Assembly: GCA_016182725.1 (NCBI GenBank)
Contig: JACPFZ010000046.1
Location: 1 to 34,090, forward strand
DNA: 34,090 bases
Source: Candidatus Gottesmanbacteria bacterium
GTDB taxonomy: Bacteria > Patescibacteriota > Microgenomatia > UBA10105 > UBA927
Reading direction: 5' to 3'
Below the pieces are notes generated by a model. It searched no databases. It had not been told where the DNA came from and worked only from the letters and a program-made list of their open reading frames with translations. Positions 2,552-14,278 of this stretch are shown piece after piece (position 1 is the first letter of the stretch; each line of letters begins with the position of its first letter). A program made the position numbers and the translations under genes.

Positions 2552-3457
2552 ATGGCAACGAAACGCGATTATTATGAAGTGTTGGGAGTTTCTAAAGGCG
2601 CCTCAAGCGATGAAATCAAGAAGGCATATCGGAAGCTGGCGTTGGAGTGGCATCCGGACAGAAATAAAGCCTCAAATGCCAATGAGAAGTTTAAAGAAAT
2701 CAACGAGGCATACGCGGTGTTATCCGATGCGCAGAAAAAATCCACGTATGACCAATTCGGCCATGCCGCCTTCGCCCCCGGTGGGGGCTTCGGCGGACAA
2801 GGCCGCGAAGGACCATTTGGTGGATTTCGCCAACAGGGACCTTTTACCTATTACTACTCAACCGGCGGTCCGCCAGCTGGCGGAGGCATGCCATTTGGCG
2901 ATGTGGAAGGCTTTGATCCGTTTGAGATCTTTGAGCAGTTTTTTGGCGGCGGTTTTTCTCGTTCGGCAGGCGCTCGACCGCGGCGCGAAGTGTATCAGAT
3001 AACGATTGATTTTGTGGAGGCAGTAAAAGGAACAACCAAGGAGATTCATTTGCCGAGGGGTCGCGCTGGTGAAGGATCAGTGCGCAAAACCATTAAAATC
3101 CCAGCAGGCGTCGATACCGGTTCGCGCATCCGGTTTGAGGATTTTGAGATGGTCATTGAAGTGCGACCGGACAAGCACTTCCGACGGGAAGGAAACGATG
3201 TCTTTATTGACTATGAAATTTCGTTTGCGCAGGCTGCTCTTGGTGTGGTTGCCGATGTGCCAACCATTGACGGAGACGTAAAAATCCGCATTCAGCCGGG
3301 CACCCAGCCGGGAACTTTGATCCGTCTACGGGGCAAAGGCATCCCTCATGTCCAAAGTGGCGGTCGGGGAGATGAGTACGTCAAAATCAGCCTTCAGGTT
3401 CCCACGCATCTTTCGCGCCGACAGCGCCAGCTTCTTGAAGAGCTTGACCATGGGTAG
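2552..3457 (+). CDS. dnaJ: DnaJ-type co-chaperone without zinc finger
   Basis: J-domain protein of 301 aa that stimulates DnaK ATPase activity and delivers substrates. Residues ~5-70 form the J domain with the catalytic HPD triad (WHPDRN). A Gly/Phe-rich linker (~75-150) follows, then two C-terminal beta domains with the conserved tail [15 protein letters not shown]. The four CxxCxGxG zinc motifs of class-A DnaJ are absent, so by architecture it is class B (CbpA-like). It follows dnaK by 83 nt and may be the main partner of this DnaK. Its G/F linker holds two palindromic DNA segments (2774-2788 and 2869-2884). Confidence 0.93.
2869..2884 (+). repeat. 16-bp perfect palindrome within dnaJ
   Basis: TCCGCCAGCTGGCGGA is perfectly self-complementary and encodes part of the Gly/Pro linker. 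The 12-mer TCCGCCAGCTGG recurs at 2379-2390 in the disordered dnaK tail. TCCGCCAGC recurs at 10076-10084 upstream of the Lon-like gene. This suggests a small palindromic repeat family tolerated in disordered protein segments; three partial copies is thin evidence. Confidence 0.4.
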
Positions 3458-9939: not shown

Positions 9940-9980
9940 TAATTGTCCTCGTTAGTCTTCTTGCAGTATCATAGAAGTAT

Positions 9981-10116
9981 CCGGGTAGTAGAATTTCGAC
10001 ATGCTTTACATTTTGCCGTAAAATATATTACCTGAAGCAATGTATGTACTATTTAAAAAGAAAGGATACTGAGATTCCGCCAGCATAACGGCAAAGGTCG
10101 AAATTTCACTACCCGG
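9981..10116 (+). repeat. 136-bp segment bounded by 20-bp inverted repeats, before the Lon-like gene
   Basis: The left arm CCGGGTAGTAGAATTTCGAC (9981-10000) and the right arm (10097-10116) are inverted copies, with 18 of 20 positions matching and the two mismatches adjacent in the centre. A second pair lies just inside: TTTGCCGT (10012-10019) and ACGGCAAA (10088-10095). The right arm ends one base before the ATG of the Lon-like gene. TAT flanks both ends (9978-9980 and 10117-10119). Two readings are open: a large leader hairpin that masks the start codon, or a MITE-like element with terminal inverted repeats and a 3-bp duplication. Confidence 0.6.
9996..10024 (+). promoter_or_regulatory. promoter of the Lon-like/RNase J operon
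   Basis: TCGACA (9996-10001; 5/6), a 17-nt spacer and TAAAAT (10019-10024; 5/6). The -35 hexamer overlaps the inner end of the left inverted-repeat arm, so a protein binding the repeat would block it. Transcription would begin near 10031. RNA from this promoter would then lack the left arm and could not form the 20-bp stem, although readthrough RNA from pnp could. Confidence 0.5.
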
Positions 10117-10117
10117 T

Positions 10118-11245
10118 ATGTCAAAGCTCACTGATGAAGTGGCAAATCTCACAAAACTCGTTGTTGAGGCAAAACTTCCCCGCGATTTAGAAACCCGTGT
10201 TGCCGGGAATCTTGAAGAAATTGTTCGTTTGGAAAGCGACATCACCGCGCGCGTCCATATAGAACAAATGCTTCGGTATATTGACTGGGTGGTCCACCTC
10301 CCTTGGAACGAGCGCACGAAAGATACATTAGACTTAGCAAATGCGCGAAAAATTCTTGATGCCCACCACTATGGTTTGGCGCCGGTCAAGGAGCGAATTT
10401 TGGAATATTTGGCAGTTCTTAAGCTCAATATTGAACGCTGGCAACAGGAATCTGAGATCCGATTCCCGGAATCGGGGAGCATTGATTCAGGGAATCGTCA
10501 AGGTGAAGCAAAACTTTCTCACGCAATACTGGCCCGCCGTGCGCCCATTCTTTGTCTCGTTGGTTTAGTCGGTACCGGAAAAACCACGCTTGCCAAATCT
10601 ATTGCTGATGCCATGGGTCGCAGGTTTGTGCGGATTCCCTTTGGTGGCATGAGCGACGCATTGGATCTTCGCGGACAGTCGCGGGTGCGGCCTGACGCAG
10701 AAATCGGCCTTATTTTGAAAGGTTTGCGATTTGCCGGAAGTAAAAATCCGGTCATGCTTTTAGATGAAATTGACCGCGTCGCAGATAGCACCCGTGGCGA
10801 TATCATGGGAGTTCTCGTGGAGCTTTTGGATCCGGAGCAAAATGTTTCGTTTAGAGATCATTACCTCGACTATCCGTTTGATCTTTCTGATGTGTTATTC
10901 ATTGCAACTGCCAACAATACGACCAATATCGCAACCGCAGTGCTCGATCGTTTAGAGCCTATTCAAATGCCCTCCTATTCCGACGAAGAAAAAATTACCA
11001 TTGCAAAAGATTACGTCTTGCCGCTTCTCATGAAAGAATCGGGATTAACCCAAGAAAATTTAACCATAGACGAGGCTATTTGGCCAAAATTGGTGCGGCC
11101 GTTAGGGTACGATGCAGGCATCAGGAGTCTTGAGCGCACGATGAATAGCTTGTGCCGCAAAGTTGCGCGCATGATGGTAGAAGGCCGCGGCAAAAGTTTC
11201 CATATCACACCGGACAACATTAAAGAATTTATCGAAACATACTAA
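10118..11245 (+). CDS. Lon-type AAA+ ATPase lacking the protease domain
   Basis: Residues 1-105 match the helical segment just before the ATPase of Lon (RYIDWVVHLPWNERTKDTLD, HYGLAPVKERILEYLAV). The AAA+ module follows: Walker A GLVGTGKT (149-156), Walker B VMLLDEID (212-219), sensor-1 ATANN and the Lon alpha-subdomain ending near residue 370. The protein stops at 375 aa, where the Ser-Lys protease domain should begin; the N-terminal LON substrate domain is also absent. The pore loop with the conserved Tyr (TYVGAMPG in Lon) reads RVRPDAEIG, without an aromatic. A ~25-residue insertion precedes Walker A. The stop is followed immediately by the RNase J start, so the genes are coupled. A non-proteolytic ATPase serving RNA decay is inference. 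Confidence 0.85.
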   Translation: MSKLTDEVANLTKLVVEAKLPRDLETRVAGNLEEIVRLESDITARVHIEQMLRYIDWVVHLPWNERTKDTLDLANARKILDAHHYGLAPVKERILEYLAVLKLNIERWQQESEIRFPESGSIDSGNRQGEAKLSHAILARRAPILCLVGLVGTGKTTLAKSIADAMGRRFVRIPFGGMSDALDLRGQSRVRPDAEIGLILKGLRFAGSKNPVMLLDEIDRVADSTRGDIMGVLVELLDPEQNVSFRDHYLDYPFDLSDVLFIATANNTTNIATAVLDRLEPIQMPSYSDEEKITIAKDYVLPLLMKESGLTQENLTIDEAIWPKLVRPLGYDAGIRSLERTMNSLCRKVARMMVEGRGKSFHITPDNIKEFIETY

Positions 11246-13526: not shown

Positions 13527-13561
13527 GGGTGACCCCTTAAAGGCCACCCCTTTCGAATCTA
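13527..13561 (-). repeat. REP-like palindrome copy A
   Basis: 35-bp element at the 3' end of the transposase gene. It differs from copy B at one position only. GGGTG (13527-13531) can pair with CACCC across a CCTTAAAGG core. Read on the minus strand it begins with TAG, the stop codon of the transposase. Confidence 0.75.
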
Positions 13562-14278
13562 ATTATCATCGATAGTAATTTTTTGAAGCATTTCCATATC
13601 ATCTTCATGATCATCTTCATGTTCCACAAAAGATTGATAGGATAATTTGGGATTGGTTTTGGAGAAAAATTTCAAAATTTCCTCCGGATGCACCCACGCC
13701 GTTTTCCGCTGACCAACATATTCCGGATACGACGACGGTTGTATGGCAAATAGCTCGGGTGACCCCTTAAAGGCCACCCCTTTCGAAGCTAGATCTAGGG
13801 GATTCCTGTGAATATATCGTGTTAGGTGCAGTAATTGTTCATCAGTTTCTATTAATACCGCCTTGTAAACGCTTTGATATAACGGTCCAATACGTTTGTA
13901 TCTCCGATTAAAGTACATCGTGTACCGAGTTGCAAGCGAATTCATGAAAATATCTATGGCATTTGCAGTATTTTGGTGGATAAGCAAATGAAAATGATTT
14001 GGCATAAGACAATACGTTGTGAGAGTAATATTTCCATGGAAGTTATTCATCCGAAGCGCCTTTAAGGCATCTGCTTTTATTTCGGGTGCGGCTTCTGGAT
14101 TGCCAATGATTGTCAATAAGACCTCTTTGTCTTTAGGAAGTAAATATTCTTTAAGATAAGAAAGAAATACTCCATAATCCATTTCATTAAGAAATATATC
14201 GCGCTTTTCCACGCCGCGATTGTAGATGTGATAGAAGCTATCGGGAGCATAAGGTTTATATGAATTTTTTGCCGGCAT
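13559..14278 (-). CDS. REP-associated tyrosine transposase (RAYT, IS200-like Y1)
   Basis: 239-aa member of the Y1 HUH transposase superfamily, which cuts and rejoins single-stranded DNA through a tyrosine and mobilises short REP palindromes. The opening YHIYNRGVEKRDIF, the HUH motif NHFHLLI (His95, His97) and the helix RYTMYFNRRYKRIGPLYQ are typical. RYIHRNPLDLA carries the conserved Tyr I take as the likely nucleophile. The ~60-residue tail after copy B is acidic and poorly conserved in appearance. A TATAAA at 14294-14289 ends 10 nt before the ATG. The flanking palindromes are its probable substrates. It looks intact. Confidence 0.92.
   Translation of the reverse strand: MPAKNSYKPYAPDSFYHIYNRGVEKRDIFLNEMDYGVFLSYLKEYLLPKDKEVLLTIIGNPEAAPEIKADALKALRMNNFHGNITLTTYCLMPNHFHLLIHQNTANAIDIFMNSLATRYTMYFNRRYKRIGPLYQSVYKAVLIETDEQLLHLTRYIHRNPLDLASKGVAFKGSPELFAIQPSSYPEYVGQRKTAWVHPEEILKFFSKTNPKLSYQSFVEHEDDHEDDMEMLQKITIDDN
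13757..13791 (-). repeat. REP-like palindrome copy B, within the transposase ORF
   Basis: 35-bp element with 34/35 identity to copy A. It lies inside the transposase gene and is translated as LASKGVAFKGSP. Its TAG is out of frame here, so the reading frame stays open. An insertion of a repeat into its own transposase is unusual. Confidence 0.75.

Follow-up and report, generated by a model that had tools for sequence, protein, structure and literature searches.

The window, i.e. the whole stretch of 34,090 nucleotides analysed here, forms contig 12 of a 796-kb Candidatus Gottesmanbacteria genome and contains a Lon-like AAA+ gene whose orthologs were present in all of the relatives searched (23/23). 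Two inverted arms, matching at 18 of 20 positions and separated by a 96-nt spacer, directly precede this gene and delimit a span of 136 bp (9981-10116) devoid of any ORF. The features of the locus, all on the plus strand, are the following:

9943-9972, plus strand: predicted host promoter outside the element, TTGTCC (9943-9948), 18 nt, TATCAT (9967-9972), from a consensus scan
9978-9980, plus strand: left target copy, TAT here and TATG in most other copies, recognized from empty sites with a single TATG
9981-10000, plus strand: left arm, 5' strand of helix A, with the conserved mismatch dinucleotide AG at 9990-9991
10001-10005, plus strand: strand B, ATGCT, predicted to pair with 10082-10086 (compensatory double changes in 5/5 pairs, 64 copies)
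10011-10017, plus strand: strand C, TTTTGCC, predicted to pair with 10090-10096 and to cross B as a pseudoknot (compensatory double changes in 6/7 pairs)
10027-10035, plus strand: motif E, ATTACCTGA (consensus ACTACCTGG), a putative alternative partner of the outer half of the left arm
10059-10066, plus strand: Shine-Dalgarno (SD)-like sequence AGAAAGGA, 51 nt 5' of the ATG, from complementarity to the 16S tail and conservation of GAAAGGA
10082-10086, plus strand: strand B', AGCAT, from covariation
10090-10096, plus strand: strand C', GGCAAAG, from covariation
10097-10116, plus strand: right arm, 3' strand of helix A, with the conserved mismatch dinucleotide TC at 10106-10107
10117-10120, plus strand: right target copy TATG, enclosing the start codon at 10118-10120, from flank counts in 64 copies
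10118-11245, plus strand: Lon-like AAA+ gene, 375 aa, with AAA and Lon lid domains (Pfam)

A sequence-only reading of this locus had described the two arms, their match and their span, the TAT flanking them on both sides (9978-9980 and 10117-10119) and the end of the right arm one base 5' of the ATG at 10118, all of which proved correct. When the left-arm pattern was searched in the window with up to three mismatches, the two arms were the sole matches (chance expectation 0.00), and the predicted RNA fold of the 9981-10116 region was 4 standard deviations more stable than that of shuffled sequences. The same reading had noticed that TCCGCCAGC within the repeat is shared with palindromes in dnaK and dnaJ. 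This is probably a coincidence: 15 matches were found where 6.8 are expected with one mismatch, and most other copies of the element carry TTTCGCCAGC, TTTCGACAGC or a similar sequence at this position. A separate palindrome, TCCGCCAGCTGGCGGA, lies near the start of another gene (window positions 2869-2884) and was, as tested, unrelated to the element.

Among the readings considered at the outset was a miniature inverted-repeat transposable element (MITE), to be checked by looking for further copies of the arms, and many were indeed found. A DNA search of the same genome returned many more copies of about 135-150 bp, the full-length ones sharing 67-79% identity, and an arm-pattern scan detected 30 arms against none with the reversed control. 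Like a MITE, the element is dispersed, ends in inverted repeats and lacks an ORF. Exact-pattern matches in named genomes fall nearly all within Candidatus Gottesmanbacteria, and a covariance model run on 374 genomes of the class located the element in 13, of which 12 belong to the same family and one (G026) to another family of the same order. The collection analysed comprises 64 copies, hereafter type I. No Rfam family, introns and ribozymes included, was hit at gathering threshold, and no published description of the element was found in the open-access papers searched. A viral origin was rejected, a scan of viral contigs having yielded a solitary arm match on one contig.

Other arrangements were encountered along the way. 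A second element type combines the same outer helix with another interior (hairpin, loop, AAGGAG-like SD, hairpin) and lies mostly flush with start codons (loci L028, L029, L105:1652-1792, L107:2213-2343 and L244-L262, in genomes G000, G009, G005 and G026); G026 carries about a dozen of them, some before L5- or L6-like genes. A back-to-back pair of elements precedes the TIM gene in G009 (L257:457-739), where the interior arms of the outer element are unrelated. In G005, the region directly 3' of a tRNA-Ala gene holds an element of 82 bp bounded by the same ends (L135:1986-2067).

The start codon directly follows the element in 64/64 type-I copies, which all share a single orientation relative to the gene. 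The right flank is TATG in 58/64, the others being ATG, aATG, cATG or TATATG; on the left side, 35 copies have TATG, 8 TAT, 7 ATGA and 3 ATG, the remainder showing mostly native SD or spacer sequence. Exact TATG thus occurs on both flanks in 35/64 copies, and further copies are bordered by TAT/TATG or ATGA/ATGA. The genes concerned, named from their N-terminal sequences (the Pfam check bears on the window gene alone), are unrelated housekeeping genes: S19, L20, S14, L10, L11, YbaB, MurG, FtsZ, HrcA, GroEL, AtpD, SerRS, DnaG, MurA, TIM, Trx and others. This spread over unrelated genes excludes an operator serving a single operon, another of the initial suggestions. Same-genus orthologs with and without the element (Lon-like, TIM, MurA, DnaG and others) differ by the element plus one target copy; for the Lon-like gene, G006 reads gttatgatagtacTATG, element, TATGTCC and the empty site of G017 reads gctatgatagtacTATGTCT. 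The comparison with empty sites, also put forward as a check of the MITE reading, came out in its favor, and the element is mobile since these sites in close relatives carry a single TATG. Two identical copies in the genome under study, lying before two different genes that we named adk and recR-like, suggest that movement was recent. The target is the (T)ATG start codon, and the target duplication at most sites and the empty counterparts in relatives are those of a MITE; the AtpD and Trx operon sites have lost the native leader beside the left end, and insertion is therefore not always a clean duplication. An ORF starting at the left ATG was considered and rejected, as stops are scattered and the frame is variable. 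In genus g7, a CIRCE-like inverted repeat, TTAGCACTC...GAGTGCTAA, lies 5' of hrcA, abutting or near its ATG (L183, L187, L204, L209, L213), and G021 carries the element between the CIRCE-like repeat and hrcA.

It had further been suggested that, if the element is a MITE, it supplied the operon with its promoter. The consensus scan predicts a second -35/-10 pair within the element (9996-10024) in addition to the upstream TTGTCC-18-TATCAT. In most element-free Lon-like genes, some 6 nt separate a -10 box from the ATG, which gives them a leaderless look, and the upstream pair occupies the position of this box in the leaderless orthologs. The window reads TATCAT agaag TAT, element, TATG, which once closed becomes TATCAT agaagt ATG. 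Because both the closed site and the element-free orthologs keep a -10 box before the ATG, the promoter appears to be external to the element and older than the insertion. The internal pair was rejected given that the -10 boxes of relatives lie upstream; the pair at 9943-9972 is likely the promoter in use and the one at 9996-10024 likely not. The notion of the element as a promoter donor was consequently not borne out, the element having rather become a 5' leader. The promoter-like sequence between inverted repeats could also evoke an invertible promoter or a protein operator, but all copies share one orientation and the predicted promoter lies outside; the one-orientation rule and the empty sites together refute this explanation, to which we attach a negligible probability.

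Comparison of the 64 copies argues for a conserved RNA structure. RNAalifold proposed helices A and B, with double changes in 16/22 pairs. Once the crossing helix C is added, 96.7% of the cells are paired and 22 of the 30 pairs display compensatory double changes; double-change cells number 150 versus 38 in shuffles, none of 500 shuffles scoring as high, and in slid versions the paired cells fall to 28-40%. For helices A, B and C, permutation within genome groups yielded z values between 7 and 10 (10.3 for C). The alternative pairing of the conserved motif E with the left arm is weaker, with 85.4% of cells paired, double changes in 6/9 pairs and a permutation z of 3.7, and a D-A' hairpin that would join the SD and the AUG had no significant covariation. 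A tandem mismatch within A, AG/TC or GA/CT and never a complementary pair, is found in all 64 copies; since it is fixed, the two mismatched arm positions do not reflect decay. The hairpin initially envisaged among other readings is thereby confirmed through the covariation of its stem, and the compensatory changes in the arms point to pairing within one strand rather than to a fixed protein site. In 56/64 copies GAAAGGA is retained with at most one mismatch, usually lying 51-53 nt upstream of the ATG, and the 16S tail of this genome, TCCTTTCT, is complementary to AGAAAGGA. On the strength of this covariation and conservation, we regard the predicted pseudoknot fold and the SD-like motif as established.

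In the predicted fold, the central loop houses the SD and stem A has the AUG at its foot, an arrangement in which initiation should require a rearrangement. A gap of about 52 nt between SD and AUG is too long for direct use without refolding, which counts against a leader function. The mechanism that we propose would begin with insertion at a (T)ATG start codon accompanied by duplication of about 3-4 bp of target. The gene retains an intact ATG immediately 3' of the inserted copy, which the host promoter lying upstream would transcribe as a 5' leader consisting of the long stem A with its tandem mismatch, the pseudoknot (B, C) and its own SD-like sequence. Such a leader would replace leaderless or native-SD initiation and gate it: stem A closed against the AUG would keep translation low, and pairing of the left arm with E would bring the SD and the AUG into play. 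We infer from this model that the leader may act as a translation switch.

A conserved position before the start, together with a conserved structure and SD, would also be expected from a non-mobile regulatory RNA controlling a defined regulon as a thermosensor or a riboswitch-like leader, and the presence of the element before Lon-like, GroEL and HrcA genes fits this idea. However, the genes concerned are otherwise unrelated (ribosomal proteins, MurG, FtsZ, tRNA synthetases, DnaG, TIM), same-genus orthologs lack the element and the sites carry a target duplication; related genes at conserved orthologous positions, as cis-regulatory RNAs have them, were not what was found. We therefore disfavor this explanation and give it very little credence. 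Removal from the RNA in the manner of an intron, restoring a leaderless message and making the insertion neutral, is scarcely more probable. TATG on both sides would permit a seamless join, the fold is pseudoknotted and, in rRNA genes of CPR bacteria, short ORF-less insertions and GIY-YIG-encoding ones belonging to neither of the intron groups I and II have been reported (PMC11270868). A spliced element would nevertheless be expected within genes too, whereas the 64 type-I copies all lie at start codons and never within coding sequence; a conserved SD would serve no purpose, and at about 140 nt, lacking any Rfam intron or ribozyme match, the element does not resemble a group I or II intron.

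A possible source of mobility for the start-codon-targeting element comes from a longer form. In the arm scan of relatives, paired arms were never far apart except for a 309-bp form in G026. Forms of 309-310 bp with the same ends and a GIY-YIG gene in sense orientation (89 aa) were recognized in G000, G001, G006, G009, G019 and G026, most of them missed by the stricter arm scan because their first arms are slightly more diverged. They too precede start codons (apparently GTG in G026, apparently that of mreB in G019). The G026 nuclease matches Pfam GIY-YIG with an E-value of 1.2e-18, NCBIfam has no name for the 89-aa protein and its sole PDB match is the UPF0213 protein 1zg2. Its own start codon is ATA in G009 and ATG in the others, which counts against it. 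Within the same family, homologs with at least 72% identity occur in 6/12 element-bearing genomes (five intact, that of G005 partial) versus 0/12 element-free genomes, a Fisher probability of about 0.007 (by hand) in which the relatedness of the genomes overstates independence; G010, complete in one contig, and G021 possess elements and no close nuclease homolog. We propose that the 310-bp form, which has a GIY-YIG gene inside as homing-endonuclease elements do, may be the autonomous partner moving the short copies, its nuclease being the probable source of the cutting activity. The family has further small GIY-YIG genes, at 44-54% identity, which adjoin tRNA genes (L304, L306, L307, L309, L310, L314, L316, L319, L320, L321, L322) and are perhaps tRNA-targeting relatives; several are flanked on the side away from the tRNA gene by a duplicated fragment of the tRNA 5' half.

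The target duplication and inverted ends would also suit a MITE of the classical kind, mobilized by an unlinked transposase of the DDE or Y1 (IS200/RAYT-like) type, its fold playing no translational role; we deem this unlikely, albeit the most serious of the alternatives. The enrichment at starts would then arise because copies there are unlosable without harm to the gene, other intergenic copies being soon deleted from streamlined genomes, which lose neutral DNA. Y1 genes are present in most of these genomes, one of them in the window (13559-14278, minus strand) 3.4 kb from the element. Yet G006 has one Y1 gene and about a dozen elements, and G014 six Y1 genes and no elements; a Y1 transposase was rejected as the partner since gene counts do not track copy number. 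In the window, 41 TATG sites are either non-coding or located at a start, and starts account for 15 of them; random survival at intergenic TATG sites therefore does not yield 64/64. The pseudoknot, SD and fixed tandem mismatch are kept beyond the needs of the ends, and the same ends flank a GIY-YIG gene and no transposase, this being the sole ORF-bearing form. The element was not filed as an ordinary MITE because the transposase link is missing and a GIY-YIG link was found.

We thus consider it likely that the locus carries a non-autonomous, start-codon-targeting mobile element, now a structured leader, with the GIY-YIG form as its partner. More tentatively, at somewhat less than even chances, the 310-bp form with its lone 89-aa GIY-YIG nuclease and start-codon target and its ORF-less derivatives, turned into self-contained pseudoknotted leaders controlling initiation at many essential genes, could represent a new class of minimal mobile elements. 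If this picture is right, a selfish element has repeatedly captured the translation starts of genes that are essential (ribosomal proteins, FtsZ, GroEL, tRNA synthetases), giving structure to mRNAs that were leaderless before and providing a natural experiment on bacterial initiation with and without leaders. With a single GIY-YIG nuclease driving it, it would possibly be the smallest autonomous mobile element, and a role would emerge for some of the numerous small GIY-YIG genes still unexplained in Patescibacteria.

Bacterial MITEs and small palindromic repeats include the Correia, ERIC, RUP and BOX elements. Like these, the present element measures about 100-150 bp, has inverted ends, no ORF, many copies and a short target duplication, and is transcribed near genes; unlike them, it occupies start codons only, in one orientation, conserves a pseudoknot, an SD and a tandem mismatch, and shares its ends with an ORF-bearing relative in which a GIY-YIG nuclease, instead of a transposase, is encoded. 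REP/RAYT and IS200/IS605 systems rely on imperfect hairpins with conserved mismatches and on a short hairpin with a tetranucleotide at its foot. An imperfect hairpin with conserved mismatches and the presence of Y1 genes are common to both, but here Y1 counts do not track copies and the repeated unit forms a long pseudoknot that abuts TATG at either end. Byps, the translational bypassing elements of yeast mitochondria, are short structured mobile insertions located within coding sequence and hopped over by the ribosome; they are likewise tolerated through ribosome handling, whereas the present element sits at the start codon and leaves the coding sequence intact. Insertions that encode a GIY-YIG protein yet fall outside the group I and group II introns have been reported in rRNA genes of CPR bacteria, along with short ORF-less ones (PMC11270868). 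Unlike our element, these interrupt rRNA genes and are described without a start-codon target, end hairpins or a leader role; compared by description alone, they share with it a GIY-YIG protein, short ORF-less forms and the same broad bacterial group (PMC11270868).
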